Made by a program: the position numbers and the translations under genes
Shown here: positions 1,496 to 56,842 of the stretch, piece by piece
Numbering within the stretch: position 1 is the stretch's first letter
Layout of the letters: each line of letters begins with the position of its first letter
The notes under the pieces: model-generated
The model's input: the letters and a program-made list of their open reading frames with translations, nothing else
Told to the model about the DNA's origin: nothing
Database searches by the model: none
DNA from: Solidesulfovibrio sp.
GTDB lineage: Bacteria; Desulfobacterota; Desulfovibrionia; Desulfovibrionales; Desulfovibrionaceae
Length of the DNA stretch: 64,000 nucleotides
Direction of reading: 5' to 3'
NCBI RefSeq assembly: GCF_029978005.1
Contig: NZ_JARKOZ010000046.1
Location: 1 to 64,000, forward strand

Positions 1496-1507
1496 TGCGA
1501 TTACTTG

Positions 1508-1538: not shown

Positions 1539-1583
1539 GCTAATCATTAATATCCCGTTGCAAAGCTCATTTATTGTTAAACT

Positions 1584-1622: not shown

Positions 1623-1723
1623 AAAATGGCTTTCCCAACGTCAATAGCGGTTAACGAAGGCCAAGTCATATGCATCAAGCGCGCTCAGAAATATTTACTA
1701 TATTTTAACAAAAGGCAAACGTC

Positions 1724-5188: not shown

Positions 5189-8100
5189 AACCAATCCAAT
5201 AGAGCTAGTAAGGACTCTCAGGGATACAATCAGTCGTTACATTCTGACGACTCTTCCGATCAGTCGGCGCTATCCAGACCTTGAACAAGCCTTTTCTCAG
5301 CTCGTTAACGAGCAGAAGCTTGTCAAGGGGCCGTATGTTGAGGGACTGCCAGACTTTGAAAAGGGCCGCTCGCTACGGACTCTCGTCGACGGAAACGATG
5401 GTTTTCTGCATAAGGCCTTTCTAAGTCTCCCCCAGGATCTACTCGACAGGCGCCTGCATCTACACCAGGAGCAAGCATTGGTCCATGCTTGCAGAGAAGA
5501 GCAGAGCCTTATTGTGGCTACTGGAACGGGCAGCGGTAAGACCGAAACCTTTCTTTACCCCATAGCGCAGAAACTCCTGAAAGATGAGGCCCCTGAGAGA
5601 CTCGGGGTACGGTGTCTTCTCATCTACCCAATGAACGCGCTGGCGAACGACCAGCTCTACTACCGGATTGCCCCCCTCTTTGGGGTCCACCTAGCTGCAC
5701 AGGGGATTACCTTCGGCCGCTATACCTCCCAAATTAAGGCGAAGTCATTGAGGTCCGAAGAGGAGCAAAGGCTTAAGGAGAACGTAAAGCTCATGCGGGT
5801 CTTGGGCAACAAGATCCCACAAAACTGGCTCCTGACCAGGGAGGAAATGCTTCAAACCCCGCCAAAGATTTTGATCACAAATTACGCAATGCTAGAGCAC
5901 CTCCTGCTCTTGCCACGGAATGCGGCCCTCTTTGCTCAGGATGCCCTCGATTGTATCGTGCTTGATGAAATCCATACATACTCCGGTGCCCAGGCGACAG
6001 AGGTCGCTTTTCTCCTGCGAAAGCTCAAGAACAGGCTGGGCGTTAAGCGGCCTCTCCAGGTGTTCGGGACAAGTGCGAGCCTTGCTGCGGGCGAGGGAGC
6101 CGACGAGAAGCTCCTTCAGTTCGCAGGCAGCCTTTTTGGCGAGGAGGTGCATCGGGTTATCCGAGGCAAGCGGCAACCGCATGCGAGGCTTCGTGATGAA
6201 GCAATTGATATCTTCAGCCTCACGCCGGGCCAATGGATTATTGTGGGAGATGTCCTTCGCGAACTCTCCACGAGGGAAGAATCAAGTCCGAAGGACTGGA
6301 ACGACGCTCTGGATGAACTTCCTGCCGCACTGCGTCTACAGGAAGATCTGTCGTTGCCTCAGGCTCTCGAGCAAACCTTCAGGGGCAATAGCGAAGTCCG
6401 GTCGGTCGCTTTTACCCTCGATACTGACACGATCCAAGATTTCGATATCCTTTCTAAACATGTGCTTGGTGAAGAAATTCAACCGGAAATTAGACACAGG
6501 GCCCTAAGTGCTATCATGCACCTGGGTATGTTGGCGAGGCAGGCTCCAGAGTCGTTCCCACTTTTGCCAAGCCGATATCATATCGCAGTAAATAGCATAG
6601 AGGGTGTCTGTGTGCGCCTCGATGGCTCTTCATCTGAAGGCTGGAGCGATATCAAGGCCCATCGTACATATACTGCTGAAAACAAAGTGCCATACTACCC
6701 GCTTAGTGTTTGTCGTAGATGTGGTCAGCCTTTTTTTGAGGGATACCAAGTAGACGAATTCATATTCAACTCGCCAAGGACAATTGAAGAGAGTGGCTCC
6801 AGGTCAATGCGAAAAGTGTTTTGGCTGGGGAGTCCTCCTGTAGACAGAACAAAGGACGAATTGGATGAATCTGTCGATGAGGAGACCAAAGCGGAGCAGC
6901 TACTAATCGACCCGTTGACAGGGAAAATTCAGGCTAAACGAAGTGATTGTAGTGTCCTCATCCAGCGGCTCGAAACGACAGCTAACGAGATTGAAAAAAC
7001 ACATTATGTTACGAAGTGCCCAGCCTGCGGCAGCCGGGCATCGGGCAGTATCGCAGAAATCCTGACCCGAATGCATCCAGGAAATGAGGCCATGGGAGCT
7101 GTCGTTGTTCAAAAAGTAATTGAAGCCGTTCCCGAAGCCCTCGACTTGGATGAGCCGCGACCGATGCGGGGACGCAACCTACTCGCCTTTTCCGATAGCC
7201 GCCAGGACGCCGCTTATTTTGCCCCCTACTTTCAGCGGACGAGCGGTGACCTTGCCTTGCGCACCGCGATCTACCAGACACTAAGGGACAGCGGCGAACC
7301 TCTAAATCTTCTCGACCTCGCTTATAATGTACTGAAATACTGGCAAAAGCGAGGGCAGGCCGTCATCCTCGATGCAAGCGGGAGGATGGTTACCAGCAGG
7401 GAGCGCCAAGAGGATATTCTCCGTGGGCTTATTGTTGCGGAATTCTGTACCCCGGGCGGGCGCAGGAACTCCCTTGAGGCCTTGGGCTGCGTCAAAGTCA
7501 GCTACAAGCCAAAGGCTTTCAACCACCTCATTCGTAGGGTCGAGGACTTTTTGCCTGAAGGGATTCGAGGACAAGCAAGGGCGTTAGTGAGCATCCTCCT
7601 GGAAACCATTCGGAGGGAGAAGGCTATCTCGAACCCATACGACTTAGATATGCGTGACCCCGCCATCTGGGGAGAAATTTATTGCCAGCACAGATCCTTT
7701 GAACTTCTGAAGGCCAATGATAAGATTAGTCACGCTTGGGTACCTCAGGAGCGGTCGAACCGACATAACCGTAGAACATGGTATCTTGTCGAGCAGCTCA
7801 AATTGCCATGGGAGAAGGCTAGGGACTTTCTCGCCCAGATGTGGGCTGCGATGCTTGATGAACGAATCCTCGTCAGCCTCAAGCCAGGGTTTGGCATCGA
7901 TCTTCAACTTATGCAATTTAATTTCGGCGAGGCTTTCCCGCTACACTACTGCCAATCTTGTGGAATTATGCAGATCGACTGCGTTAACGGTCGCTGCGCT
8001 GCGTTTAATTGCCATGGTCAGTTGCTACAGTTATCTGATGAAGCACGAGAAGCGTTGAAGAGGCACAACCATTACATCTCAAGCTACATCCAGGGTACGG

Positions 8101-43045: not shown

Positions 43046-43741
43046 TCAGCTCAACGGGCCGACATACCCCGTTTCCGAGATGGCTTGCGCTTGCTTGATC
43101 ATGCCGTCGAGGCGCTTTTCCTCGTTTTCCAGGCCGGCGAGGGTTTGCTGGTATGCTTCTTTCTGTTCGGGAATGAGGGTCTCGGCGAGCTTGCGCCGTT
43201 CGGCGATGGCCAGTTGCAGTTGCTCTTCCTGGGTTTTGAGTTCCTGCAGCTTGGTCTTGGCGATGGTCTGGCGCTCGGTTTTCTTGTGTTTTTCAAGCCC
43301 CTCCAGCTCTTGCGCGAAGGCCGCGTTTTGTTGTTCGACCTTGCCGTTGTATTCCTGCGCGGTTTCCAACAGCTTTTCGAGTTGCTTGTTTTGCAGCTTG
43401 ATATTCCGATAGGTCTCGATCTGCTTTTTCGCGATCGCGGCCGCCGTGGCCACGCCGATGAACGTGCCGACGAGGCCTCCGATTCCCGCGCCGAGCCCCG
43501 GGTTGTCGCGGCTGAGCAACGCGCCTGCGCCTGCCCCGACGCCGCCGCCGATCAACGCGCCGGCCACGATGGCCTGCGTGAAGATCTTCCGTTCCGCCGC
43601 GTTCTGGGGTTCCTGTTGCGGCGGGGCGGCCTGTTCCTCTTGCGGTTCGAAGTTCTGCGTCGTGCGGCGGGCCGGCGTGCAGGAAGCCGAGAGCAAGGCG
43701 AGAATCAACACAAGGACGAGAGGGCGTTTTCCGCACGACAT
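43046..43741 (-). CDS. Glycine-zipper coiled-coil lipoprotein
   Basis: 231-aa lipoprotein: signal LVLVLILALLSASC with lipobox Cys at about residue 21. A Pro/Gln-rich linker follows, then a glycine-zipper stretch (AGALIGGGVGAGAGALL...GAGIGGLVGTFIGVATAAAIA) that would insert in or pack on membranes. The rest (about 110-220) is a long coiled coil rich in Gln, Glu and Lys. GAGGAG lies before the ATG. It is the last gene of the ten-gene tubulin-like operon. The zipper-plus-coil plan recalls Pal/Lpp-like envelope spacers. Function unknown. Confidence 0.75.
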   Translation of the reverse strand: MSCGKRPLVLVLILALLSASCTPARRTTQNFEPQEEQAAPPQQEPQNAAERKIFTQAIVAGALIGGGVGAGAGALLSRDNPGLGAGIGGLVGTFIGVATAAAIAKKQIETYRNIKLQNKQLEKLLETAQEYNGKVEQQNAAFAQELEGLEKHKKTERQTIAKTKLQELKTQEEQLQLAIAERRKLAETLIPEQKEAYQQTLAGLENEEKRLDGMIKQAQAISETGYVGPLS

Positions 43742-43841
43742 GGTTTTTCTCCTCGGTTCGCGCATTCGGCGACGGGAACGCCGGAAGCTCTCCCGGACAT
43801 TGCCGCCTGCCGTGCCGCATGATTCCGAAACAGTCGAACGA

Positions 43842-44261
43842 CTACATATTCTGATCGATAAGTCTGTCGAGACGTTGTTTTTTTTCTGTAACGACGGATT
43901 GTTTGTCCTTGATGGCCTTTTTGATCTGTTGCAACCGCAGCTCGTCTTTTTGCTGTTTCGCAAGAGCACTTTGATTACGCTTGTTCTGTTGTTGCAGCGC
44001 GGCGATGGAGGCGGTCGTGGCGGCGTATTCTTTATTAAGTAAGTCTATATCATGTTCCATGGCTTTGATTTGACTCTCAAGTTCTTGCCTTTTCAGGAGA
44101 AGATCTTGTCTGCGCTGTTCTTCTTCGGCATTTTTGCGTGTATTTTCAGCGAACTTCCCTTGCTCGATTCGCATATACTCATTATAGACACACCCTGTCA
44201 ACGAAAAAAGGATAACAAATAAAAGTAGCCCGGCGCGACGCCGCAGATTCTGGCGGTGCAT
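43842..44261 (-). CDS. Small coiled-coil lipoprotein
   Basis: 139-aa lipoprotein with signal and lipobox LLLFVILFSLTGC (Cys about 24). The remainder is almost entirely coiled coil (EEQRRQDLLLKRQELESQIK, KDELRLQQIKKAIKDKQSVV). It is AT-richer than its neighbours. It begins 15 bp after the FGE-fold gene and belongs to the same operon; it likely reaches across the periplasm as a tether or adaptor. Not matched to a named family. Confidence 0.72.
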   Translation of the reverse strand: MHRQNLRRRAGLLLFVILFSLTGCVYNEYMRIEQGKFAENTRKNAEEEQRRQDLLLKRQELESQIKAMEHDIDLLNKEYAATTASIAALQQQNKRNQSALAKQQKDELRLQQIKKAIKDKQSVVTEKKQRLDRLIDQNM

Positions 44262-44276
44262 GGCAGTCTCCTTGGC

Positions 44277-46262
44277 CTATTGGATTTGAAATTCCGGTTC
44301 GGAAGTGAAAACCGCGATGAGCGCGTCCGGTTGCCGGTAAAGGCCAGCCCGGGCGTCGTGCACGTACCGTTCGATGAGGTCGAGGGAATGGCGTTGCAGG
44401 CCCGCGTCCCCGGCCTTTTCGCGGTCTTGCAGCCACTGCCACAATTCCCGTTTGACTTCCGGGAAAAGCGTGTCCTGGGTATGCGAGACGATCTGCCGGA
44501 CGAGGTCGCACAGGTCGCGGACCATCAAGGCCGCTTCGTTGTATCGGCTGCCGTAAGCGGCATCCGCCTTGGACAGGCGCTTGACCTGGACGGCGAGTTC
44601 CAGATTCTTGAGATTCCTGTATCCGAACAATGCGTTCGCGCTGGCCTGGCGCAGCAAGGCCTCGAGATACAGTTTTTCCACGGCCCGGACACGGCCCGCG
44701 TTCTTTTCGATTTCATGATCGAACATGGCGGCGCGCCGCTTGAGGTCGGCGATCTCGCCGTCCCGTTCCTTGAGCCTTTCCGCGAACGCGTTGTTGGCCT
44801 GGCTGCTGACGAAGTTCCGGGAAGCCTCGCTCTGGGCTCTCGTTACGAGTTCGCTATTGTCCGCGGAGAGTTGCCTGTTGAGCGCCTCGAGTTGTTCGAT
44901 TCTTTCCTGCGTTGCGGCGCTGTGTGCCGTGCCTGCAAAAGCGTGTCGCGACTGGCCGGCTTCCTGCAACGCCTGCGTTTTCTGCTCGAGTTGGCCTTGC
45001 AGCGTCCGGTTCGTCTGCTCCAGTTGGAACAGCGTCGCCTTTTGCGCGGCAAGCTCCTGCTCCAGCGTGCTGATCTGTCCGGCCTGGAGGGTCATGGCCG
45101 CCCGATCCCGCTCCTGCCGCTCCTTCAGGAAACGCTCCTTGTCCTGCTCCGCCTGGGCCGCCGGGCTGCTGGACGCGCTCGGGCCGGGCTGCGTCAGCCC
45201 GAGGGTCTTGCGGTATTCGGCGAACGCGCCGTCCATCTCATCGGCAGTGACCTGCATGGCCGAGATGCGCGTGCCGAGAACCAGCCGAAAACCCAGGCGC
45301 GGCGCGCGGTATGGCGCGCCGTCCTTGTCGTGGGCGAGATGCTCGTTGCGCAGCGACGCCGACGGCTCGGCATGGGTGTAATCCGTGCCGCGGATCACGA
45401 AATCGCCGAAGCGGCCCTGCTGGTAGTCGGGGGAAAAAAGATTGAGGGTCAATTCCTGGGCATTGCCCAGCATGTCGCGAATGCCGAGGGGGTTGGGCTG
45501 GATATCCGGGCTGCCGCAGGCATGGAGCTTTCTCCCGGCATTGTTTTGCAGCCATTCGTGCCGCATGGGATCGTCGCCATAGGGATGGGGCGCGTCGTAC
45601 AGGGAACGATCGGCGTCGAGCGTCGCGACTCCGCCACGGGCGGCGAACTCCCACTCGGCTTCCGTGGGCAGGCGGCAAAACGCCGGCGCGCCCCGAAAGC
45701 GGGGCAGGCTTGCCTGCTCGTGCGAAAGCAGCCACTGGTTGAGGGCTTCCAGAAAGGCATAGATTTCCGACACGGTCACGGCGGTGACCGGCAATTTCGG
45801 ATCCCCGCCCGCCTGTTGGGCGGGCACGTTCTCCTTGTGCGCATGGCGCAGGACGGCGGCCCATTGGCCCTGTTGGACCTCCGTTTCTCCGACGTAGTAG
45901 AGCCAGTCCGGCCGGCTGTTTCGCGTTCCCACGAAGCTGCCGGAAAGCAGGGTCTCCGTGAGCTGCGCCTTGTAGCCGTGCTTTCCCTCCCGGGAGCCGA
46001 GCTGCACCTGCCGGGCGGCGAAGAGCTTGTCGGAACCGACCCCGAGATAGACGGCGCGAAAGGCCAGCTCCCCCCCATCGGGCAGGCGGACGACCAGTCG
46101 GTCCGGCAGGTCGGGCGGCGGGGCGGCCCACGCGGAACCCGCCAGAAGCGAGACCCAGGCAGCGAGCAGCAGCCAGGCGGCACGACGCCGCAAGGGCGAC
46201 GTTTCGCCCACACGCCGCGCCAGGGCTTTGCGGACAGCGGCGAATCGCAAGCGGTCATTCAC
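44277..46262 (-). CDS. Exported formylglycine-enzyme-fold (SUMF1-like) protein with coiled coil
   Basis: 661-aa protein from a GTG start overlapping the permease stop by 8 bp. Signal peptide AAWLLLAAWVSLLAGSAWA. Residues about 45-330 have the FGE-sulfatase (SUMF1) fold: YYVGETEVQQGQW near the start, CRLPTEAEWEFAARGG, IRDMLGNAQELTL and PRLGFRLVL at the end. A long coiled coil (about 360-510) and a helical tail follow. The reactive Cys pair of true formylglycine-generating enzyme is not evident, so it is probably a binding or scaffold version. It is the only FGE-fold protein in the window and is far from the sulfatase-like gene. Confidence 0.82.
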   Translation of the reverse strand: MNDRLRFAAVRKALARRVGETSPLRRRAAWLLLAAWVSLLAGSAWAAPPPDLPDRLVVRLPDGGELAFRAVYLGVGSDKLFAARQVQLGSREGKHGYKAQLTETLLSGSFVGTRNSRPDWLYYVGETEVQQGQWAAVLRHAHKENVPAQQAGGDPKLPVTAVTVSEIYAFLEALNQWLLSHEQASLPRFRGAPAFCRLPTEAEWEFAARGGVATLDADRSLYDAPHPYGDDPMRHEWLQNNAGRKLHACGSPDIQPNPLGIRDMLGNAQELTLNLFSPDYQQGRFGDFVIRGTDYTHAEPSASLRNEHLAHDKDGAPYRAPRLGFRLVLGTRISAMQVTADEMDGAFAEYRKTLGLTQPGPSASSSPAAQAEQDKERFLKERQERDRAAMTLQAGQISTLEQELAAQKATLFQLEQTNRTLQGQLEQKTQALQEAGQSRHAFAGTAHSAATQERIEQLEALNRQLSADNSELVTRAQSEASRNFVSSQANNAFAERLKERDGEIADLKRRAAMFDHEIEKNAGRVRAVEKLYLEALLRQASANALFGYRNLKNLELAVQVKRLSKADAAYGSRYNEAALMVRDLCDLVRQIVSHTQDTLFPEVKRELWQWLQDREKAGDAGLQRHSLDLIERYVHDARAGLYRQPDALIAVFTSEPEFQIQ

Positions 46263-48084
46263 GGATGTATTCCCCCGGGTCGATGCGCAGGACGGAAAGG
46301 GCGGCCAGCAGCGAAGCGACGGACGTCGTCGCCAGGATGCCGCCGACAAGGGCCGAGGCGGGCAAAACGCCAAGCCGCGTCAGGGAGGCGTCGCGCAGGT
46401 CCACAACATGCGCCGCGACGTGGCCGAAGACCGCATAGGCGGCCAGGGAAAGCAGGATTCCCCCAAGCACGAGGACCAGGCTTTTGAGAAAGGGAAAAAG
46501 GAAAAGCGCGCCGGTATGCAGCCCCAGCAACTGCAGCATGGCCATGTCGCGCCGCTTGCGTCGGATGCCGGCATGGACGTCGGCGGTCACGGCGAAAAAG
46601 CAGGAAATGCCCGAGACGACCACGATCAGGCCGTAGAGTTGCTCCATGTAGCGGGAGAGCAGCAGGATTTTACGCACGGCGGCCACGTTCGAGACGGGGT
46701 TTTCCAGGGCGGGCATCGCCAGGCGTCGCCCGGCGGCGCGCACGAAGTCCACCAGCCCTTCCACCTCGGCCAGGGACGCCGCATAGGCCCGGAAATAGCG
46801 GATGGCCTCGTCCGTCACGTCGAAGGCGCCCGTTTCCGGATGGTAGGTGGCCTCTTCCCGGCGGGCGGCGTGCATGCGGCCGGCGAGATCCCGGGGGACG
46901 GCGACATGGCCCGGCCCCACCTCGGCCGCCGGGCAGGCCGTGACGGGAATGGCGACGATCTTCTCCTTGTCGCCGGAAGGAAATTGCAGACGCCCCGCGA
47001 CGCAGCCGCCGAAATCGCCCAGGGTCTCGGGATTGAGCCAGGCGACGGGCCGGCCCGGGGCGGCCGCCAGCGGGGGAGGCGCGAGGCTTTGGGGCAGCAC
47101 CGTGAGTAGAAGCGGCCGCTTGCCCGCGGCGCTCTCCAGCATCACCGGGAAGTTGTCCAGAAAAGGCACGGCCTCGACCTCGTAGCCCAGGTTGTCGTGC
47201 TGGTTGACCATGGCCTCGATGTCCGCGTCGAAGACCCGGCTTCCCACGGGTTTCCACAACATGACGCGCATCCCGGGCGGCAGGGCCCAGCCCGCGGCGT
47301 CGACCGGCGCGGGCGGCTGGCTGAAGCCCGATCTGCCGGCGACCATGCGACGGTATTGCTCCTGGGTCGGGAAGCGCCGGGCCAGGGTCAGGATGCCGTC
47401 GTATTCCGGAGTGAGCGAGGTGGCGGCTCCCGGCAGTCCGAAGAGGGCGAAAGCCTGTCCGCCGCGCCACCGGTACAGCCCGTCGAAGACCCGGCCGGAC
47501 ATCCATATCTTGTTCACGTCGGGCTGGGGCAGGATGCCTGCCAGGCGAAACGTCAGGACATACCGTTCCTCGCGGCCGGAATCCCGCACGAGGAGCACCT
47601 TGAAGGGGTCGCCGATCCGGCTGCCGGCGCGTGCCGCCAGGCGCTCCGACACGACGACGGCGGACGGATCGTCGCCCAGGGAAATGTGGTTTTCCACCAG
47701 CAACGGGTCGCCGTCTTCCGTGGGGAAGGCGTTGACTTGTTCCCCGAGCCCGGGAACGTCCAGCATCAGGTAGGCCGTGGGCGAGGCCGCGACGAAGGCC
47801 GACCGGCGGCGCAGCGCCTCCAGCCAGGCCGGGCCGAGGGGCGTGGTCAGGGGGGCGCTCGGCGTCACCAGGCGGCTGTCCGGATCGTGTTGCAGCCTGT
47901 CGCGCATGGCCCCGATCACGCCGTCCTTGAGGCCGAGCAGGATGAACAAGGGGGTGAAGATGGCCCCCAGGGCCAGGACCAGGCAGACGGACAGGACCCA
48001 CTCGTAACGCAGGTCGGCGGCGACGAGCCTGGCGACGTGGAGGCTGTCGCCCAGCCAGCCCTGGTTTCGGGGGACGGCGCTCAT
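46255..48084 (-). CDS. FtsX/MacB-type ABC transporter permease
   Basis: 609-aa permease. One N-terminal TM helix (YEWVLSVCLVLALGAIFTPLFIL) precedes a very large periplasmic domain (about 60-445), and three TM helices close the protein (YGLIVVVSGISCFFAVT; FLFPFLKSLVLVLGGILLSLAAYAVF; ALVGGILATTSVASLLAALSVL). This is the MacB/LolC-type mechanotransmission topology, in which ATP hydrolysis moves the periplasmic domain without transporting a substrate through the membrane. It overlaps its ATPase gene by 4 bp and the next gene by 8 bp. Partners are probably the envelope proteins of the operon. Confidence 0.88.
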   Translation of the reverse strand: MSAVPRNQGWLGDSLHVARLVAADLRYEWVLSVCLVLALGAIFTPLFILLGLKDGVIGAMRDRLQHDPDSRLVTPSAPLTTPLGPAWLEALRRRSAFVAASPTAYLMLDVPGLGEQVNAFPTEDGDPLLVENHISLGDDPSAVVVSERLAARAGSRIGDPFKVLLVRDSGREERYVLTFRLAGILPQPDVNKIWMSGRVFDGLYRWRGGQAFALFGLPGAATSLTPEYDGILTLARRFPTQEQYRRMVAGRSGFSQPPAPVDAAGWALPPGMRVMLWKPVGSRVFDADIEAMVNQHDNLGYEVEAVPFLDNFPVMLESAAGKRPLLLTVLPQSLAPPPLAAAPGRPVAWLNPETLGDFGGCVAGRLQFPSGDKEKIVAIPVTACPAAEVGPGHVAVPRDLAGRMHAARREEATYHPETGAFDVTDEAIRYFRAYAASLAEVEGLVDFVRAAGRRLAMPALENPVSNVAAVRKILLLSRYMEQLYGLIVVVSGISCFFAVTADVHAGIRRKRRDMAMLQLLGLHTGALFLFPFLKSLVLVLGGILLSLAAYAVFGHVAAHVVDLRDASLTRLGVLPASALVGGILATTSVASLLAALSVLRIDPGEYIRE

Positions 48085-48806
48085 GGAAGGCGGCACGGCG
48101 CAAGCGCCGACTCGAGTCCCCGGCCGGAGTCCTGCGCGATCTGGAAGCGGAAGGCGGCGTCGGCGCTTCCCCGGACCATTTCGGGGGCGTGGGTGACGAG
48201 GATGAGGCTGATGCCGTTTTCGCGCGTGAGCTGGCGAAACGTCTCCAGGATCGTCCTGGCGCTCGGGGGGTCCAGGGCGGCGCTCGGCTCGTCGGCGAGG
48301 ATGATCCGCGGCCGCCGGGCCAGGGCGCAGGCCAGGGAGGCCTTTTGCCGCTGCCCGCCGGAGAGCCTGGCCGGATAGGCGTCCAGGACCCCGTCGAGGC
48401 CGAGGAGCTCCGCCAGGTGGCCGGCCTGGCCGGCGGCGGGTTGCCCCAGCCGGGCGGCGAAGCGGATGTTGCCCCGGACCGTGAGGCATTCGAGCAGTCC
48501 GCCGCCCTGCAGGGCGTAGGCGAAAAAGTTCCGTCGCACCTGGCGCTTGTCCCGCCGGGACAAGGCGTCCAGATTCGTGGTCGCGCCGCCGGTGAGAACG
48601 AACTCGTCCGCGTGGTCGGGCGTGAGCAGCAGCCCGAGCATGTCGAGCAGGGTGCTCTTGCCGCAGCCGTTGGGGCCGAGCACCGCCACGAACGCGCCCG
48701 GCGGGACGTCGAACTCCGGCACCGTGATCCGGATGCGCCGCCGTTTGTCCCCGCGCGTTTTCCACATGTTCCTGATCCGCAGCCCCACGGCCGCTTCTTC
48801 CGGCAT
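48081..48806 (-). CDS. ABC transporter ATP-binding protein (LolD/MacB-like)
   Basis: 241-aa ATPase. Walker A GPNGCGKST (about 44-52), Q-loop FAYALQGGGLLE, signature LSGGQRQKASLACALARRP, Walker B IILADEPSAALD, H-loop LVTHAPE. Complete and of normal size. It precedes its permease with a 4-bp overlap and follows the vWA gene by 13 bp. Size and signature fit the LolD/MacB/FtsE group. Confidence 0.93.
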   Translation of the reverse strand: MPEEAAVGLRIRNMWKTRGDKRRRIRITVPEFDVPPGAFVAVLGPNGCGKSTLLDMLGLLLTPDHADEFVLTGGATTNLDALSRRDKRQVRRNFFAYALQGGGLLECLTVRGNIRFAARLGQPAAGQAGHLAELLGLDGVLDAYPARLSGGQRQKASLACALARRPRIILADEPSAALDPPSARTILETFRQLTRENGISLILVTHAPEMVRGSADAAFRFQIAQDSGRGLESALAPCRLP

Positions 48807-48819
48807 GCCCGGCCTCCGT

Positions 48820-51066
48820 TCAGGGGAGCTGGTCGAGGTCCAGGGCCACGACCCGGTCGCTTTCCCGCGCGCCCTGGTTGAGCTTCTTCCAGATGCGCGG
48901 GTTGGCCTGCTGCCGCAGCAGGTCCTCGTAGTGCCGCAGCTTGTCGGCCATGGCGCGCACGAAATCCCGGACGATGTCCTGGTTGCGGAAATCGTCGCGG
49001 GTCTTCATCATGATTTCGCTGTGGTAGGGCAGCTTGTTGATGCCGAGCGGCATGCTGAACACGTCCCTGAAGTTGACGGCGGCCGGGTCCACCATGGTGA
49101 AGCGCGTGTTCCTGGACACCAGATCGAAGAAATCGAGGGCGGTGCTCTCCTCGCCGCGCAGCGCCGCATCACCGAGGCCCTTGAGTTCCCGCACCCGGCT
49201 TTCGAGCTCCTCCAGTTCCGCCCGCGTGAGCAGCACCATGGGGGCCAGAGCCTCGCGGGCCGGCTTTTCCAGCACCTTGTCGCACACCCAGCCCCGTACT
49301 TCCCTGTCGGGCAGGGAGTTGTCGGCCCGCAGCAGCACGGCCTGCTGGAAAATCAGTTCCGTCAGCGATCCAGGTTCGGCAGGCGGCAAGGGAGTGCCCG
49401 AGGCGCTTGCCTTGGCGTAGATCTCGGCCGCCTGCATCGCCTCCTTGAAATGCGCGAACATGAGGCCGCACAACTGCGAGGAGCCGGCGTCCACGGGAAA
49501 GAAGTGCGTCGTCTCCGGGCTGGTGCCGTAGGCGCCGGCAAAGGTCGCGGACAACTCTTTGAATTGCCGGATGCCCTGTCGTTCGTAGTCCTTGGATTTG
49601 GTGTTGCGCAGATAGAAGGAATTGATGGCGATGCTGCGGATGTGCGCCTTGTCGCGCAGGACCCTGGCGGTGTACCCGTCCTCGTCGCGCCCGGGGGCGT
49701 CGCCCACCAGGAACACGAGCCGCACGGCGTCCTTGCGCCATTGCAGGCTCTCCAGCGCCTTGTCCAGGCCCTGGAAGACGCATTCGGGAAAGTCGTCCCC
49801 CTTGACCACCGGATACTGCGCTTTCACGTCGGCCAGGACGGAGACGAACTCCCGGCCCGGCAGGGTCCGCGACGTGTACTCCTTGACGACGTAGCCGAAG
49901 GCGGGATCCTTGTCCCGGTAGCCGACGAAGCCGAAACGCAGGTCGTCGTCGGCCGACGCGCCGATGAAGTCCCGCATCGCCCGCAGCACGTCGTCCAGGT
50001 GGGGCTGCATGGACTCGGTCGTGTCCATGACGAACACGATGTCGATGGCGAGTTTTTGTGCGGCCCGGGGGGCTTCCCGCGAACGCGTCCTGGCCGCGAC
50101 GTCGAGCAGCCGCGCCGCCATGCCGTCGAGGGGCAGCGTCTCTTCGGCGGCGGCGGGGAACGTGTCCAGGAGCGGATAGAAGATGGCGGAATCCTGCGCG
50201 ACCCCCACGGTCGGCTCCTGGGCGATGATCCCGGTTCCTGCGGCCTTGCCGTCTTTCAGGCGCTCTCGCAGGTCCTTGAGCCGCTGGGCCCGCTGGGCCG
50301 GGGCGAGCCGCGCCAGGGCGAGCAGGGCTTCCTTGTCCTTGAAAAACAGGGAAGGGTCCCGGTTGAGGGGGTTGGTGAAGCGCATCGCCAGGGCCTGCTT
50401 CCAGGGGATCGCGTCCTTTTGGGCCAGCCAGCCGGCGGCCTGCGGCGACCACTGGGGCGGCTTGATCCTGGGCACGTAGGCGTCGGTGACGCGGTACCAT
50501 GTCTCGCCGGCCGGATCCTGCTTCTGGTCGATCACGCCGAAGGCCTCGTACTGCTGGAGATTGTCCCTGACGACAGGGCTCGAGGCGTCGGGCGCGGCAT
50601 GGATCCGGGCCTGGCGCAGGGTCAGGACGCGCGACACCAGCCAGGGCGGGGGCGGCACGCCGTCCCACCAGGCTGTTTCCGAAGGGGAAAGCCGCACCTC
50701 CCGCTGCACGCCCTGGCGATACCGGTCCTGGTTGCGCCGGGCGCGCTCCCGGCCCACCTGTTCGGGGGCGAGGCCGAGGTCGGCGGCCATGAGGGCGTTG
50801 AGGGCCCTGCGGTCGTTGTTTTCGGCTTCGGCCGTTTTTCTGGCTTCGGCGCTGCAGGGGCCGTTTATTTCGAGCATGCCGTCGAGGCGCTCGCCGAGGC
50901 AGCGCGCGGGCCCCAGGAGCAGGTCGTCCAGCGCGCCGCGGCGGGCCTGCATGGAGGCGAAAAGCGTATCGTAAGCGTCCTCGCCGAAGGCGCGCGCCGG
51001 CAGCAGGGCGAGGACGCAAAGGACGAGGAGGGCCAACGGCGCGGGCGTGCGGGGATGCGTGGTCAT
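48820..51066 (-). CDS. Exported von Willebrand factor A (vWA) domain protein
   Basis: 748-aa protein with signal peptide LALLVLCVLALLPARAFG. An SH3-like segment lies near 145-205 (LRQARIHAAPDASSPVVRDN...WYRVTDAY). The vWA domain (about 340-530) starts DIVFVMDTTESMQPHLDDVL, a MIDAS variant DxTxS, with RFGFVGYRDKDP and LVFLVGDAPGRDEDG. A helical C-terminus completes it. vWA domains bind protein partners in a metal-dependent way. It is the periplasmic component encoded between the tubulin-like/zinc-ribbon genes and the ABC pair. Confidence 0.87.
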   Translation of the reverse strand: MTTHPRTPAPLALLVLCVLALLPARAFGEDAYDTLFASMQARRGALDDLLLGPARCLGERLDGMLEINGPCSAEARKTAEAENNDRRALNALMAADLGLAPEQVGRERARRNQDRYRQGVQREVRLSPSETAWWDGVPPPPWLVSRVLTLRQARIHAAPDASSPVVRDNLQQYEAFGVIDQKQDPAGETWYRVTDAYVPRIKPPQWSPQAAGWLAQKDAIPWKQALAMRFTNPLNRDPSLFFKDKEALLALARLAPAQRAQRLKDLRERLKDGKAAGTGIIAQEPTVGVAQDSAIFYPLLDTFPAAAEETLPLDGMAARLLDVAARTRSREAPRAAQKLAIDIVFVMDTTESMQPHLDDVLRAMRDFIGASADDDLRFGFVGYRDKDPAFGYVVKEYTSRTLPGREFVSVLADVKAQYPVVKGDDFPECVFQGLDKALESLQWRKDAVRLVFLVGDAPGRDEDGYTARVLRDKAHIRSIAINSFYLRNTKSKDYERQGIRQFKELSATFAGAYGTSPETTHFFPVDAGSSQLCGLMFAHFKEAMQAAEIYAKASASGTPLPPAEPGSLTELIFQQAVLLRADNSLPDREVRGWVCDKVLEKPAREALAPMVLLTRAELEELESRVRELKGLGDAALRGEESTALDFFDLVSRNTRFTMVDPAAVNFRDVFSMPLGINKLPYHSEIMMKTRDDFRNQDIVRDFVRAMADKLRHYEDLLRQQANPRIWKKLNQGARESDRVVALDLDQLP

Positions 51067-51070
51067 GGGG

Positions 51071-51718
51071 TCACTGTTCCTTCGTCAGCGTGCTGGAGCC
51101 GGCCTCGACCTTGCCGTAGACCCACCAGGGATCGAGGTTCGCGACCAGTTGGACGGGCGGGGCCGGGTCCTGGGCGTTGCTGCGCAACAAAAGCGTCCCT
51201 TCCCGCATGGCCGGGGAGGCGGACTGGAAGCGGACGGTCAGGCTGGCCTGCTCTCCGGGCTCCACGACCAGCGGCTGCCCGGGCACGGAGAATTCGGCCG
51301 GCCGCGCCTCGCAGTCGGCGATGACGAGCCTGCCGTCGCCGACGTTTCGCACCGTGAGGGTCGCGGTCGCCACACCCCCCTTGGCGGGAGGAAAGGCCAG
51401 CGTGGTTCGGGCAAGTTGCAGCCGGGGCGTTCCCCCGGTCCCGGCGAGGAGAAAGGAAACAAGGACGGCCAGCAGCGCTGCGCCGACGCCGGCGAGGAGC
51501 CAGCGCCGTGGAGGAAGCAATCCTCCCGGCGTCTCGATGACCACCAGTTTCTGGCCGCAGGGCTTTCCGGAAACGGTCTGGCCGGGACATTTGGGATTGC
51601 CGCCGTCCATGGACGCAACGACGTCTTCTTCCGGGATCTTGCGGTTGTCGCGGGCGAGAAGGCAGGGGTCGTCGCCGAACTCGTTTTCGCAGCGGTAAAA
51701 GCGGTTGCGTCTGGCCAT
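51071..51718 (-). CDS. Zinc-ribbon membrane protein with periplasmic Ig-like domain
   Basis: 215-aa protein. The N-terminal cytoplasmic part has paired Cys residues (FYRCENEFGDDPC and PKCPGQTVSGKPCGQK), a probable zinc-binding module. One TM helix (WLLAGVGAALLAVLVSFLLAG, about 75-95) leads to a beta-sandwich domain with TLTVRNVGDGRLVI and VVEPGEQASLTVRF, like ASH/DUF1573-type Ig folds. Its ATG shares one base with the stop of the tubulin-like gene. It could connect the cytoplasmic tubulin-like protein to the periplasmic partners. Confidence 0.75.
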   Translation of the reverse strand: MARRNRFYRCENEFGDDPCLLARDNRKIPEEDVVASMDGGNPKCPGQTVSGKPCGQKLVVIETPGGLLPPRRWLLAGVGAALLAVLVSFLLAGTGGTPRLQLARTTLAFPPAKGGVATATLTVRNVGDGRLVIADCEARPAEFSVPGQPLVVEPGEQASLTVRFQSASPAMREGTLLLRSNAQDPAPPVQLVANLDPWWVYGKVEAGSSTLTKEQ

Positions 51719-54700
51719 CACAACCTCGTCCGGTCGGCGAGCTGGCTCGCCAGAGTGGAGGCCGCCCGGGCCTTGGCGTCAAACAGCCGATACTTCGCGT
51801 CGCTTTCCTTTTTGCCGCTCAGCAGGAAGCAGCACCCGCTCATGTCCTTAAGGGCCTTGTGCAGCGCATCGAGGTCCGGCGCATCGGACGCGGCCATGCC
51901 GTCCCGAATCAGTTTCTGCAGGTCGATCAGGCAGTTCTCGTTGAACTGGTCGGTATAGAAGGAGTAGATCTGGATGGTTTCGACGGGAATGCGCAGGCCG
52001 AAGCGGCTTTGGCTCTCGGCGGCGACCTCGCGCGACAGCCGTTCAAGCGTCATGCCGCTTTCGACCTTGTCCGTGACGCGGCCGTAGGCGTCGAGCCGGC
52101 CGAAGAGGATCGGCTCGCCGTCCGTGTCGGGAACGCGCATGAGCCCGAGGGCCGTGGCCAGCATCACCTCGGGAAGATGTTCCGCCAGGACCGTCTTGCG
52201 GTCCGGCTTCATCAGGTCGGGCAACGGGGGGTTGTGGCTTTCCGTATGGACCTCGAAGGAGGTTCGCGCCGCATCCCGCGCGGTGCCCTGTTCCAGGCGG
52301 TCCCGGTATTTGGAGTGCAGGGCGTGGGTGACGCGCGCATGGCGGGCCGGAAAGAAGAAGGCCACGGAAAGGATGGCGATTTCGGTCGGATTGCGTTCCT
52401 CCGGCACGTCCTGGCAGGCGGTGTCGATGGTCTTCCAGTTGCCCTGGTCGCCGATGATGCTTTCGATCATCGCGTGCATCTGCTGCTCGAACGTCGCGAC
52501 CTTGGCGCATTTGGGCAAAAAGACGCAGCGGCGCAGCACCGGCCCTTGGGTCGGCAGCTCCATGGGCTCGGAATTGGGATGGAAGGCGACCATGGGCATG
52601 GCCTTGCCGAGCAGTTCGCGCAGCCAGTGCGCGAGCTTGCCCTCCACCTGACCGCCGTAGTCGTTGTAGAGCTTGCGCACGATGTTCTGGCCGAGGATGC
52701 CTTCGAAATCCTTGACGTTCTCGCGCACCTCCCGATGGGCTTCCATGGCGTGCTGCTCGGAGAGCATCCGCAGCCGCTCGACGAGGAGGCCGCCGACCAG
52801 GTTGGTCTTCTCGTCCACGGCCATGTGGTCGTTGTAGGCGGCGAAGGTGGCATGGTCGCCGCGCAGCTTCTTGAGGGCCTCCATGGTCAGGTTGCCGTAG
52901 CGGTCCTGGACCTCCTTGTTGGCTTCGAACCGCTCGCGGATGGAGTCGTTCACGTACTGGGCGTCGACGAGGTAGACGACGTCCTTGCGGTCTTGCGGGG
53001 ATTTCCTGTCGGAGATCCTGACTTTGATTTCCGCGGCGAAGCGCTCGGCGAGAAGTTTGAGGTTCGTGTTGAAGGTCGCCACCTGGTCGTGCAGGTAGAC
53101 CAGTTCACGCAGCAGCTCGGTGCAGAATTCATGGCCGTATTGCATGGCATGCTGCATGGTCTGCCAATAGTGGTATTGCGTCGTGGCGATGCGGTATTCG
53201 TTGAAGAGCCGTTCCTGCTTGCCCTTGGCCCACCGGCCGCATTTGTCGTACTGGGTGCGGATCTCGTCGCGTTTGCGGTCGGCGTTGCGCACCTCGTCCA
53301 CGGCCTTGCGCTCCTGCTCGTCGTAGTACGTCCTGTCTTCCTCGATGCGCCGGGACAGATGCTCGACGACGTCGGGAAGATGGTTCAGGGCGTATTCCGG
53401 GTCCAGGCGTTCGATGCCGAAGATCAGGTCCCTTTCGACGTAGGCGCGGATGGAGCCCGCGCGGGCGCTGATCTCGTTGGGTTCCCGCCGGGCCTTGAAG
53501 TAGTCGAGCACGCCGCCGGCGTCGCCCCGGGCACGGAAGCCCCTTTGCCAGACCTTGTCCGCGCGCCGGTCGAAGTCCGTGAGCCATTGCCGCCGCTCCT
53601 TGTCCGCGCCAAGCTGCTCCCGGACTCTTTTCTCCTGTTGCTCCAGCGTGTTGCGCCATTCCACCTCGTAGAGCTCGAATTCCGGCTGCCCGGTGACGTC
53701 CTCCACGAGGTCCAGGCACAGGTGCGCCCGGGTCGCCTTCCAGATGGAACGGCGCTTGCCGACGAAGCTGTCGGTGGAGAAGTCGCGAGGGCTTTCCAGG
53801 TAGCGCTTGTCCCACTTGTTGAAGATGGCCCGCAGCAGGTACTGCCGCCCGAAGGAGTAGGAGAGCTTCTCCCGTATCTCCCGTTCGGGGATGGCCACGC
53901 GCTGCACGCCGTAGCTGATGAAGGCGGTGGAGCGCGCGCCGCCGTTGGCGTCGGCGGGGAACTGGTTGCGGTCTTCCATGGTCAGGGCGTCGCGCAGGGA
54001 CTTGGGCAGGTCGCCCATCTGGCGCACGGCGACCTGGAAGAGGAATTCCGCCGCGTTTTCGATCTGCTGGGCCAGGGGGACGTCCACGTCGCTTTCGGTC
54101 GTGTCCGTGAGCAGGGCGACGGCCTTGTAGGTGTCGCGCAGGTCCTTGGTGGGCAGGCCGTTGCCGGCCTTGGGCACGGCCAGCCTGGCCGGGCTCGCCG
54201 CCCGGATGTCCCAGGGCTCGTAGATGCCCAGGCGGAAGGCGTTGAGCTCCAGCAGGGCGGCGTACTGGTTGGCGTAGAAGTTGCCCGTGTTGGTGCTGCC
54301 CACGTCCTTGGCCGTGACGAAGCCGTGGATGAACAGCTGGTAGCTGCCGGGCTCGTCCTTCAGGTGGCGCTGGATCTGGGCGACCACGTCGAGGAGCGCG
54401 CCGCTGCCCGTTCCGGCGGCCAGGGTGCAGGCGACGTGGATTTCCGCGCCGACCTGGCCGTTTTTGCACAGCTCCTTGATCCGGTCCGCCACGGCCTGGA
54501 TCACGTTGGCGATGTTGTCGCCGTTGGCCAGGGCGAGCCGCCCCATGCGCCGGATCTGGTTGCAGCCGTTGGGGGTCCTGGTGCCTCGGGTGATGTCGCG
54601 CACGAAGTCCATGTCCCGCCGCACCCAGGGCTCGATGCCGGGATAGCGCTCGATGCTGCCCAGGATGGCTTCCAGGCCCTCCGGGTTCAGGAGGACCTTC

Positions 54701-54981
54701 TCCTTGTCCTTGAGGTGCAGGGTCTTGCCGAAGACGCGCCAGCCCTGGAGGCGTTCCCCCTGGCCCTCCAGGTCCGCCCGGTTGGAATCGACGCTGAGCG
54801 TGGCGATGCGGGATTCCACCGGCTGGCCGCCGTATTCGTCGTGAAAGGCGTAGACGTCCGGATACGATTCCCCGGTGTTGCCGCGGGAGCGCCATTCCAC
54901 GTAGAGTTTCTTCTTCAGCTCCCGGACCACGGCGCAGCCCGTGCCGCCAAGCCCGATCAACAGGAAATTGTGCTGTGCCAT
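51718..54981 (-). CDS. Tubulin-like GTPase-domain protein (Tubulin_2 type)
   Basis: 1087-aa cytoplasmic protein. The N-terminal 250 residues have tubulin/FtsZ hallmarks: FLLIGLGGTGCAVVRELK (residues 6-23), TLSVDSNRADL (61-71, like the FtsZ 'NTDAQAL' strand) and the phosphate-binding CTLAAGTGSGALLDV (185-199; tubulin signature GGTGSG with Ala for the first Gly). The remaining 800 residues are mostly helical with several coiled-coil stretches (DEQERKAVDEVRNADRKRDE). This fits the 'tubulin-like' family Pfam calls Tubulin_2, with no signal or TM segment. The start at 54981 is 1 bp after the preceding stop. It is the largest and central gene of the operon; whether it polymerises is unknown. Confidence 0.82.
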   Translation of the reverse strand: MAQHNFLLIGLGGTGCAVVRELKKKLYVEWRSRGNTGESYPDVYAFHDEYGGQPVESRIATLSVDSNRADLEGQGERLQGWRVFGKTLHLKDKEKVLLNPEGLEAILGSIERYPGIEPWVRRDMDFVRDITRGTRTPNGCNQIRRMGRLALANGDNIANVIQAVADRIKELCKNGQVGAEIHVACTLAAGTGSGALLDVVAQIQRHLKDEPGSYQLFIHGFVTAKDVGSTNTGNFYANQYAALLELNAFRLGIYEPWDIRAASPARLAVPKAGNGLPTKDLRDTYKAVALLTDTTESDVDVPLAQQIENAAEFLFQVAVRQMGDLPKSLRDALTMEDRNQFPADANGGARSTAFISYGVQRVAIPEREIREKLSYSFGRQYLLRAIFNKWDKRYLESPRDFSTDSFVGKRRSIWKATRAHLCLDLVEDVTGQPEFELYEVEWRNTLEQQEKRVREQLGADKERRQWLTDFDRRADKVWQRGFRARGDAGGVLDYFKARREPNEISARAGSIRAYVERDLIFGIERLDPEYALNHLPDVVEHLSRRIEEDRTYYDEQERKAVDEVRNADRKRDEIRTQYDKCGRWAKGKQERLFNEYRIATTQYHYWQTMQHAMQYGHEFCTELLRELVYLHDQVATFNTNLKLLAERFAAEIKVRISDRKSPQDRKDVVYLVDAQYVNDSIRERFEANKEVQDRYGNLTMEALKKLRGDHATFAAYNDHMAVDEKTNLVGGLLVERLRMLSEQHAMEAHREVRENVKDFEGILGQNIVRKLYNDYGGQVEGKLAHWLRELLGKAMPMVAFHPNSEPMELPTQGPVLRRCVFLPKCAKVATFEQQMHAMIESIIGDQGNWKTIDTACQDVPEERNPTEIAILSVAFFFPARHARVTHALHSKYRDRLEQGTARDAARTSFEVHTESHNPPLPDLMKPDRKTVLAEHLPEVMLATALGLMRVPDTDGEPILFGRLDAYGRVTDKVESGMTLERLSREVAAESQSRFGLRIPVETIQIYSFYTDQFNENCLIDLQKLIRDGMAASDAPDLDALHKALKDMSGCCFLLSGKKESDAKYRLFDAKARAASTLASQLADRTRL

Positions 54982-54982
54982 G

Positions 54983-55798
54983 CTAGCCTCCGATGTAGCG
55001 CGGGGATGCGCGGTGTTCCGGGATGTCGGCCAGGGCCGCGCGGATGAGCAGCCCGATCGTGATCGCCTGGACCAGGAGAAAGACCGCGACCAGGACGGCG
55101 CGGGAGATGACGACGATGCGCGAGGCTTTCGCCTTGAGCTCCACGAGGATGTTCTCGCTGGCGATCTGGATGGCGTCCTGGGCGTGGTAGGTGTTCGTGC
55201 CCGACGCGAACACCTGTTCCATGTCCTTGGTGATGGCCTGCTTGGCCGCGTCGGGATGCGGCCAGAGGATCGTGCTGAGGAAGGGATGGTTGGCGCGGAA
55301 ATGTTCCACCGCGCCGCTTGCATGGACTTGCGCCGCCGTCTGCTGCGCCTGCCTGGTGACCGTGGGGATGGTCGTGCTGGCGCTCGTGTCCGGGCGGGGA
55401 TGCTTGGCGAAATTTTCCAGTTGCTTGCCTGCGGCGTCTCGCAGGGCGTACACGGCGTCGTAAGCTTGGCGGAACGTATCGTTGCTCCAGGAATCGTCCT
55501 GCAGGATGGCCCGCTTCCATTGTTCCACCATGAGCACGGCCACGGGGCCGGTATAGCGGCAGGTCACGAAGAGCAGGGTGCAGACCAGGGTGGTGGCCGC
55601 CGTGATGGCGCAAAACAGGCGGTGCTGCCAGTGGAGGGAGAACTGGCGGTTGAAATTGGCGGCCACCCAGCTGGCGAACCACCAGGACAGGCCGCCCAGC
55701 GCGAGGCCCGCGCCGCAGGTGGCCAGGAACATGCCGCGACTGTCCTGCCAGAGCTGGGCGATCAGCGCGAAGACGAGATGCAGGAAGTCCAGGATCAT
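54983..55798 (-). CDS. Multi-TM membrane protein of unknown function
   Basis: 271-aa protein with about four TM helices: one near residues 5-35 (FLATCGAGLALGGLSWWFA), one at 60-80 (LFCAITAATTLVCTLLFVTC), and one near the C-terminus (VVISRAVLVAVFLLVQAITIGLLI). A periplasmic or cytoplasmic loop of about 130 polar residues lies between. It is immediately upstream of the tubulin-like gene, so it may anchor it at the inner membrane. I recognise no family. Confidence 0.7.
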   Translation of the reverse strand: MILDFLHLVFALIAQLWQDSRGMFLATCGAGLALGGLSWWFASWVAANFNRQFSLHWQHRLFCAITAATTLVCTLLFVTCRYTGPVAVLMVEQWKRAILQDDSWSNDTFRQAYDAVYALRDAAGKQLENFAKHPRPDTSASTTIPTVTRQAQQTAAQVHASGAVEHFRANHPFLSTILWPHPDAAKQAITKDMEQVFASGTNTYHAQDAIQIASENILVELKAKASRIVVISRAVLVAVFLLVQAITIGLLIRAALADIPEHRASPRYIGG

Positions 55799-55910
55799 GG
55801 GATTGCGCCTCGTTGGTTGATGCGTTGCTGCCGATTATTGCGCCCTGCGTTTCATGCGCATGCGTTCGGGCGTCCGTGCCGCCATCTCTGGCGTCGCACA
55901 TTTCGCCGGC

Positions 55911-56564
55911 CTACTTGCCGCACCCGGACAGGGGGGTGTAGTCGTATTGCGATTGTGCGGCCTGGTCCGCCTCGTGCATCCTTTCCATGACGACGACGAT
56001 TCTTTTGTCCGGCGTGTTGTTGAGAATTTGCACGGCGGCCTTCCGGTTGAGGGCTTTGGAATTCAGTTTCTTTTTCCAGTCGAGGAGTTCGGCGTAGAGC
56101 TTTTCTTTTTCCTTGGAGATCGCCCGCAGTTCGGCCTTGACGTCGTTGTCCCGGATGTCGTTTTCCCCCAGGTATTTCACGAGAGCGTCCCAATCCGCCT
56201 GCATGCACTCCAGGGCCTTCCCCTGCTTGTCCAGGGCGAGCCCCGCCATATCCACGGTCTTTCCGTATTCCTTGCCCAGTTTTTCTCCGGCGTACCCGCC
56301 GGCAAGGGGCGCGAGAAGCATCGTGGCCATATTGTCGCTGCGCATCCCCATATAAGTTCCCGCAGCGAAGCCTCCGACAGCGCCGATCGCACCGGCGAAC
56401 GTCTCATTGGCATGCTGCGGCTCGCTGGTGATTTTGGCGGAAGCCTCCAAAAGGGCGACTGCCTGAGGGTACCAATCGGCGAGGTAATGGGCGTTGCCGA
56501 GCGTATGGGTAGTGCTCAGAAGCAGAAGCACGGCTGGTATTGTGTAAGCTGACAGTCTTCTCAT
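55911..56564 (-). CDS. Exported glycine-zipper protein
   Basis: 217-aa protein with signal peptide AYTIPAVLLLLSTTHTLG. A glycine-zipper segment (FAGAIGAVGGFAAGTYMGM...LLAPLAGGYAGEKLG) and a helical region rich in Lys and Glu follow. It resembles the lipoprotein at the other end of the operon in plan (zipper then coil) but lacks a lipobox. First gene of the operon, with an AT-rich promoter region upstream. Function unknown. Confidence 0.72.
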   Translation of the reverse strand: MRRLSAYTIPAVLLLLSTTHTLGNAHYLADWYPQAVALLEASAKITSEPQHANETFAGAIGAVGGFAAGTYMGMRSDNMATMLLAPLAGGYAGEKLGKEYGKTVDMAGLALDKQGKALECMQADWDALVKYLGENDIRDNDVKAELRAISKEKEKLYAELLDWKKKLNSKALNRKAAVQILNNTPDKRIVVVMERMHEADQAAQSQYDYTPLSGCGK

Positions 56565-56813
56565 TGTTTTTTTCGAAGATAATAGTGTTTTTCCGCCAAG
56601 CCATGTTGTGTTGTGCGAAACATGGTCGGTGTTCCGTATTTGCGCCCGTAATTCCCGGGAAGCAGGCCTTGCCGCAAGGCAATAAGAAAACCTGTTGCCG
56701 CCGCCGTTGCACATTGCCGCCGGCTTCAGGCAAGCTCGCGCCAGAGCGCCCTGGACGCGCGCCGTGTGGCGCGGTCGGAATTTATATACAAATTATTTAT
56801 AAATTCGCTCATG

Positions 56814-56842
56814 AAAATATTTAATTTACCTATTCACGTCAA
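56814..56842 (-). promoter_or_regulatory. Candidate promoter of the tubulin-like operon
   Basis: Minus strand TTGACG (56842-56837), 17-bp spacer, TATTTT (56819-56814), inside the most AT-rich stretch of the region (56780-56840). The leader would be about 240 nt. The rest of 56565-57254 has no supported gene. Confidence 0.55.

Follow-up and report, generated by a model that had tools for sequence, protein, structure and literature searches.

A ten-gene Solidesulfovibrio operon combines an FtsZl1-type tubulin-like protein with a TagQRST-PpkA-like cassette: a candidate envelope-damage sensor with a cytoskeletal partner

The subject of this report is a ten-gene operon in a 64,000-nt stretch of Solidesulfovibrio DNA (the window), each half of which resembles a kind of system described before. 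One half recalls TagQ, TagR, TagS, TagT and the Ser/Thr kinase PpkA, which make up the threonine phosphorylation pathway controlling the type VI secretion system (T6SS), a bacterial weapon; TagR of Pseudomonas is a SUMF1-fold protein. In the available excerpts of the literature, TagQRST and PpkA sense outer-membrane damage and direct assembly to the damaged site, with the C-terminal domain of PpkA as an interaction partner of TagR (from excerpts of PMC5898192, PMC9871819, PMC10580974, PMC3224232, PMC10482370, PMC11881912 and PMC6950479). The other half recalls FtsZl1, described from sequence and tied, in the excerpted text, to vWA proteins and a membrane-remodelling role, with no similarity detected in 2010 for its C-terminal domain (Makarova & Koonin 2010, PMC2875224); the literature searched yielded no experimental study of what it does. 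Two further descriptions are relevant. A SrfB-SrfC neighbourhood of host-associated Deltaproteobacteria, annotated with ppkA, tagT, tagS, tagR and tagQ, was noted in 2013 (PMC3608642, excerpt). Like the operon, GAP1-N2 systems feature a tubulin with a C-terminal coiled-coil or helical domain, an extracellular vWA protein and zinc ribbons, but the operon has no GTPase or GAP1 gene above cut-off, and the excerpt of Kaur et al. 2020 (PMC7159879) restricts the tubulin theme to Firmicutes and Actinobacteria. A first-pass annotation of the window knew of no named system with this gene set, which did not hold, FtsZl1 corresponding to the tubulin/vWA half and TagQRST-PpkA to the vWA/ABC/SUMF1/glycine-zipper half. 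A match to a named system was to count against its proposal; each half does match one, but the combination of a tubulin with a TagQRST-PpkA-like set was not found in the open-licence literature searched. Each half is thus of a known kind, and the combination is new as far as that literature shows.

The genome measures 4.82 Mb, and the window comprises the first 64,000 nt of one of its contigs (192 kb). Ten open reading frames (ORFs; g1 to g10) occupy the minus strand at 43046-56564, with g10 as the first gene and g1 as the last. From g10 to g1 the junction gaps are 112, 1, -4, 4, 13, -4, -8, 15 and 100 bp; the tight spacing of ten minus-strand genes claimed by the first-pass annotation was borne out, with seven of the nine junctions at 15 bp or less. 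Gene starts were picked by ribosome-binding site and overlap, and the start of g10 is most likely 56564 (or 56714) rather than 56842. The layout confirms a real ten-gene operon, as predicted from gene arrangement. The three Pfam families that had been named for checking (Tubulin_2, vWA and FGE-sulfatase) were all found. The features are given below, together with matches to two loci used throughout: L158, the T6SS cluster of a tubulin-bearing genome, and L024, the nearest relative, from the giant cable bacterium Ca. Electrothrix gigas.

g1, 43046..43741, minus strand: glycine-zipper exported protein, weakly TagQ-like (phmmer to L158 TagQ 8.1e-6, 15.8 bits; L024 match 3.7e-17)
g2, 43842..44261, minus strand: small coiled-coil lipoprotein (lipobox LTGC)
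g3, 44277..46262, minus strand: exported SUMF1/FGE-fold protein with coiled coil, TagR-like (FGE-sulfatase 9.8e-21)
g4, 46255..48084, minus strand: FtsX/MacB-type ATP-binding cassette (ABC) permease, TagS-like (FtsX 4.5e-6)
g5, 48081..48806, minus strand: ABC ATPase, TagT-like (ABC_tran 1.9e-22; Walker A, LSGGQ, Walker B)
g6, 48820..51066, minus strand: exported vWA protein without kinase (VWA_4 7.7e-10; DTTES MIDAS-type motif)
g7, 51071..51721, minus strand: zinc ribbon (C11, C20, C45, C55), single transmembrane (TM) segment from about residue 75 and HYDIN-type Ig domain (9.4e-8); proposed adapter
g8, 51718..54981, minus strand: FtsZl1/Tubulin_2 tubulin-like protein of 1087 aa (PF13809 9.5e-38)
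g9, 54983..55798, minus strand: helical membrane protein, kept beside many tubulin-like genes
g10, 55911..56564, minus strand: exported protein, glycine-zipper similarity weak; comparison with the fetched loci gave no relative

The periplasmic half was compared with L158, in which FHA, TssK, TssM, TssB and TssC genes, and others that we take to be TssL, TssA and TssJ, surround the PpkA-Tag genes. The Tag set of this cluster consists of PpkA (Pkinase 8.6e-35, plus vWA), TagT, TagS, TagR (FGE 3.1e-26), TagQ (glycine zipper, weak) and a small lipoprotein. Using phmmer, with E-values computed on a 14-protein set, we found matches of g5 to TagT (1.5e-38), g6 to PpkA (8e-34; BLASTP 5.6e-35), g3 to TagR (2.4e-31) and g4 to TagS (5e-23). 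Residues 143-748 of g6 align with 421-1039 of PpkA, C-terminal of the kinase domain, and Pfam found no kinase domain among the ten operon proteins. Because g6, g5, g4 and g3, and weakly g1, match PpkA, TagT, TagS, TagR and TagQ, the periplasmic half is, judging from sequence, TagQRST-PpkA-like minus the kinase. In comparison with that system, the vWA protein, ABC ATPase, permease and SUMF1-fold protein are homologous and collinear and the glycine-zipper protein is weakly similar, but the kinase domain is missing, and on the cytoplasmic side stands a tubulin-like protein with a proposed zinc-ribbon/TM adapter. The trans-envelope partner set of the first-pass annotation is supported, and its 'MacB-type pair' is replaced by a TagT/TagS-like one.

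The order of g1 and g2 is reversed relative to L158, g1 has no standard lipobox by the pattern used, and a g1 relative closes the cassette in L055, L158 and L165. Small lipoproteins occur in a g2-like position in L024, L158 and L165, a correspondence of position only, as no sequence match was found. Within the 14-protein set of L158 there was no significant phmmer match for g2, g7, g8, g9 or g10. Sequence searches of the PDB gave no match for the vWA protein or the permease and only weak ones for the SUMF1 protein (best 2.9e-5). No match to the T6SS sheath protein TssC/VipB (PF05943), the only T6SS gene searched for, was found in the window's own genome (96.3% complete).

The cytoplasmic half is centered on g8. 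Besides its Tubulin_2 match it carries the T1 motif GLGGTG and the T4 motif AAGTGSG; both patterns are present in 65 of 67 aligned tubulin-like sequences each, and the T1-loop glycines and most of the T4 motif are invariant across all 67. An AlphaFold model built with this alignment has a mean predicted local distance difference test (pLDDT) score of 87.3 and a predicted template modelling (pTM) score of 0.76. VIA-align superimposes the model on CetZ (3zid_A) with Z 26.0 and a root-mean-square deviation (rmsd) of 3.3 over 311 residues of the 360-residue chain (model 3-904), on tubulin 7exc_B with Z 23.4 over 360 of 427 residues (model 4-926), and on tubulins generally with Z of about 21 to 23 over about 360 residues (model 3-926), so that the model and PF13809 bear out the tubulin fold claimed at first. 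Model residues 438-793 are mostly long helices, followed by mixed alpha/beta structure. As the matched chains are nearly whole and this segment is mostly long helices, the model suggests that g8 is a whole tubulin fold in which some 400 helical residues are inserted between the GTPase and second tubulin domains. FtsZl1 likewise has an N-terminal tubulin/FtsZ-like domain, a long coiled coil, a helical C-terminal part, an operon vWA protein and membrane partners; it differs in that the coiled coil appears in the g8 model as an insertion inside a whole tubulin fold, and that the partners here are TagQRST-like, the ABC pair, SUMF1 protein and zinc-ribbon/TM protein not being named in the excerpted text of PMC2875224. 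For g9, which has 18 relatives in the fetched loci by phmmer, the AlphaFold model (pLDDT 91.7) is a helical membrane protein; Foldseek returned no match at E 0.001, and the best VIA match (Z 8.8, rmsd 11.8) does not exceed what ordinary helical arrangements give.

Among the tubulin-like genes a zinc-ribbon/TM (ZnR-TM) protein, g7 in the window, is a recurrent companion. For 64 of the 87 tubulin-like genes it is encoded at most three genes downstream (as the first gene in 58), whereas 20 of 1193 other genes are of the ZnR-TM kind, and about half of these 20 look by eye like second adapters of the same loci. These counts rest on a hydropathy threshold for TM segments rather than a trained predictor and on a simple longest-ORF gene caller that found no tubulin gene in L058, L082, L086 and L090; the 87 genes include fragments and paralogues with one adapter in common (L017, L061, L072), and the adapter of L047 was counted at a distance of 1.7 kb. 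By pattern the protein is absent for 23 of the 87, one of them in L089, where an atypical ribbon is visible by eye. The ZnR-TM unit is also found in fusions: with a g6-family vWA in L053, L055, L089 and L165 (ribbons of L089 and L165 judged by eye; the L053 vWA is missed by Pfam and similar to g6 at 6.3e-38), with SUMF1 in L039 and L044, with PBP and OmpA in L026, L028 and L035, weakly with a glycine zipper in L027 and L035, and with ankyrin repeats (L085), an M48 peptidase (L039) or TPRs (L013). In the four loci with vWA fusions, ZnR-TM-vWA reproduces the architecture of PpkA with a zinc ribbon replacing the kinase. Locus L165 runs g9 homologue, tubulin, ZnR-TM, ZnR-TM-vWA, TagT, TagS, TagR, TagQ and small lipoprotein; from the vWA gene onward this is the order of the L158 T6SS cluster, with a zinc ribbon for the kinase and a tubulin gene in front. 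The 64 downstream occurrences agree with the earlier suggestion of a zinc-ribbon connector, and g7 is the likely link between the cytoplasmic and periplasmic halves.

We gathered 89 loci by tubulin similarity (the best 80 of 173 genome loci plus nine further), a sample that contains too few distant FtsZl1 loci; the phmmer comparison of window proteins with these loci excluded L023 and also L015, which shares its contig with L026. Tubulin and cassette occur together at eight loci from three phyla: Desulfobacterota (the window, L024), Verrucomicrobiota (L048, L085, L053, L089) and, as gammaproteobacterial loci, L055 and L165. The tubulin search supplied seven of them (six of the 89 plus the window), and L165 came from the vWA search. 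Four genes, encoding the tubulin-like protein, vWA protein, ABC ATPase and permease, form a core found in seven loci outside the window, including L024. In L024 the tubulin is about 52% identical to g8, and eight window genes, g1 and g3-g9, have counterparts that are almost collinear; one gene is additional and g10 is missing. Since eight genes are near-collinear in L024 and the core recurs in seven outside loci, a chance grouping of the ten genes seems unlikely from their sequences. The co-occurrence that the first-pass annotation asked about is found in part: it holds for these loci, but most tubulin loci are without the cassette. The tubulin query matches nine of 395 phylum genomes including the window's own, several only partly, and none turned up in a further 98 relatives, a set that has 13 members from the same genus and includes incomplete genomes. 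In a tubulin tree (FastTree only, L089 left out, with long branches that meet) cassette-type members are scattered, with five label changes of which at least four are forced; in a vWA tree of 32 rows (L144 and L162 left out) the tubulin label needs three changes, at least two forced. The label changes on both trees hint at repeated pairing or swapping and do not prove it.

Several minor features of the tubulin loci were recorded. In Janthinobacterium, the second gene upstream of the tubulin-like gene codes for a caspase-fold (Peptidase C14) protein (L062:7620-8975), and genes of the same cluster (c10, in which L062 alone was scanned) lie near tubulin in L045, L051, L069, L081, L094, L096 and L100. 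L061 and L072 each have two tubulin-like paralogues in tandem (774 and 1032 aa), and L020 has three; such sets could form heteropolymers. By name, several carriers are large or filamentous sulfur bacteria: Lamprocystis, Parabeggiatoa, Thiodictyon and Electrothrix gigas (L034, L039, L032, L024).

The cassette itself has a wider distribution. A vWA profile matches 61 of the 395 phylum genomes, near full length at 27 places in 25 genomes and elsewhere as vWA-domain stretches. SrfB lies within about 10 kb in 17 of the 25 genomes and tubulin in one, the window's own, where no SrfB was found; conversely, every one of the 17 SrfB genes that exceed the cut-off in this sample is within about 10 kb of a g6-family vWA. 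We fetched 15 of the 27 places (a sixteenth fetched region is a partial match), and all 15 have the ABC ATPase and permease and 14 have a SUMF1 match, that of L137 being an 89-residue fragment. The SrfB-SrfC neighbourhood has the same periplasmic cassette with another large cytoplasmic pair, SrfB and SrfC standing where the operon has tubulin. Given SrfB linkage in 17 of 25 genomes and tubulin in one, the cassette looks like a portable sensor whose partner in the cytoplasm can be exchanged, which suggests kinase/T6SS, SrfB-SrfC and tubulin as alternatives. In the SrfB/SrfC loci a two-sequence profile, a weak test, found no zinc-ribbon adapter, and PDB sequence searches with SrfB and SrfC gave nothing convincing. 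SrfB-SrfC pairs were seen upstream of the vWA-ABC cassette in L131, L133, L134, L135, L139, L140, L143 and L163, with SUMF1 in all except L133; it may be that SrfABC acts as an output of a damage response and not as a toxin on its own. Other variants include an apparent ATPase-permease fusion (L142:11901-13976), with TagT and TagS homologues in one open frame, and an Azospirillum brasilense plasmid (L145) with vWA, ABC ATPase, permease and SUMF1 genes and no tubulin found in the 25.8 kb fetched. Klebsiella plasmids account for 114 of 126 plasmid records matching the vWA protein g6 and 110 of 118 matching the permease g4 (hits H7-H46).

The reading that we favour, at slightly better than even odds, is that the operon encodes an envelope-damage sensor of TagQRST/PpkA type with an FtsZl1 scaffold as output in place of the kinase and T6SS. 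Based on homology to TagQRST-PpkA, the outer-membrane and periplasmic parts g1 (TagQ-like), g3 (TagR-like) and g4/g5 (TagTS-like) would control which state the vWA protein g6 adopts. A TM helix connects the vWA part of PpkA to its kinase; in the operon the zinc ribbon of g7, part of one polypeptide with the vWA in four other loci, would be the cytoplasmic end and bind g8. Where the envelope is damaged, clustered vWA/ZnR-TM could then seed or release a GTP-dependent filament or patch, which presupposes that g8 polymerizes, and g9 might help to anchor it. This direction of signalling, and an output of local repair or reinforcement or a trigger for something else, are what we would expect from the arrangement. 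A broader version seems to us less likely than not: injury read by a TagQRST-type sensor is passed to a ZnR-TM plug in the place of the PpkA kinase, tubulin assembles under the wound, and ZnR-TM is a general plug for FtsZl1. If true, ZnR-TM ties vWA, SUMF1, glycine-zipper, PBP-OmpA, TPR, M48 peptidase and ankyrin modules to FtsZl1 tubulins, and some bacteria could meet envelope damage with a cytoskeletal response. For FtsZl1, the recurrent adapter and its fusions offer a concrete, testable answer, and the TagQRST link supplies a testable stimulus, outer-membrane damage.

Several observations weigh against a damage sensor with tubulin output. The cassette is found in only seven of 90 tubulin-gathered loci, most FtsZl1 loci having other partners, so that it represents one variant and not the family's core; in L048 and L085 it is on the opposite strand, several kb off, and cut by the locus end inside the permease, with SUMF1 not seen. 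Seven of the 25 genomes with a near-full-length vWA showed neither SrfB nor tubulin, and the cassette may for that reason have other roles. Damage sensing is carried over from Pseudomonas, binding of the zinc ribbon to tubulin is proposed from gene arrangement, and the TagQ match of g1 is weak. In the window the ribbon (g7) and vWA (g6) are separate proteins, as are the SUMF1 and glycine-zipper modules. As for the tubulin, Foldseek with the whole g8 model ranks tubulins first but modestly (E 2.0e-5, TM-score by target about 0.4, rmsd about 7), and a PDB sequence search with g8 reaches tubulin only at E 0.0069. The catalytic T7 loop was not recognised in g8, and the helical insertion seen in the model may block ordinary filaments.

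Other explanations account for parts of the data. The operon could be a membrane-remodelling machine in which GTP-driven tubulin assembly does the work and the vWA, SUMF1 and ABC proteins serve as load or anchor with no damage sensor. We consider this unlikely: remodelling was proposed for FtsZl1 in 2010 (PMC2875224, excerpt), and related tubulin loci have TM and OmpA-type partners, but the periplasmic half is specifically like TagQRST-PpkA, whose known job is sensing. Somewhat less likely again is a conflict or programmed response, with envelope damage by phage or competitors triggering a tubulin-like effector, an idea put forward for tubulin- and vWA-containing GAP1-N2 GTPase systems (Kaur et al. 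2020, PMC7159879, excerpt). The caspase-fold neighbour in L062, the patchy spread of the tubulin, and two weak matches upstream in L053 that miss the Pfam cut-offs, to DO-GTPase2 (0.0018) and GAP1-N2 (0.007), fit such a response. Against it, no GTPase, GAP1 or toxin family scored above cut-off in the ten proteins except the tubulin domain, the left flank genes are common to same-genus genomes, and PADLOC has no operon-specific model. The PADLOC matches were generic ATPase and coiled-coil similarities plus a weak one of g1 to PDC-M09A (2.7e-4), which gives no specific support to the defence function that had been floated for the operon.

MacB/Lol-like export, in which the ABC pair would transport a lipoprotein or metabolite with the other proteins as accessories, is compatible with the intact ATPase motifs and the FtsX-type permease. 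It is very improbable given a TagTS-like pair near-collinear with SUMF1, vWA and weakly TagQ-like partners, and g5 is far below the equivalog cut-offs for MacAB and LolCDE (MacB, 97.8 of 966 bits needed; LolD, 104.9 of 307.75); we dropped it upon finding that the L158 T6SS cluster matches five window proteins near-collinearly. The least probable alternative, with hardly any weight in our assessment, is that two unrelated operons adjoin by chance: most tubulin-like loci are indeed without the cassette and most cassettes of the phylum sample without tubulin, but the genes in the window overlap or nearly abut, eight are near-collinear in L024, and ZnR-TM and vWA are fused in four loci.

The GC content of the operon (0.655) equals that of the left flank (0.654), and g6 was found as a single copy in its genome. 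Two same-genus genomes share the gene block at 31.7-40.5 kb: G004, and G001 as far as 40.0 kb, where the fetched stretch stops. A third, G013, shares 40.4-42.65 kb; a porin gene (41.2-42.65 kb) matches the opposite block end in G001 and G004, so the order is partly kept. Among the matches listed, the operon is not at that place in these three siblings. Assembly contamination was rejected and the contig taken as genuine, the left flank being common to three siblings and GC equal, and a tRNA-linked island was rejected with no tRNA found within the 64-kb window. About 32 kb from the operon, on the plus strand at 281-11042, a lower-GC stretch encodes, besides a phage-type integrase, one protein of 1154 aa with no Pfam match and a DEAD-helicase/MZB protein of 2009 aa that matches Druantia DruE (1.9e-172), and is by its gene content a likely integrated defence island.

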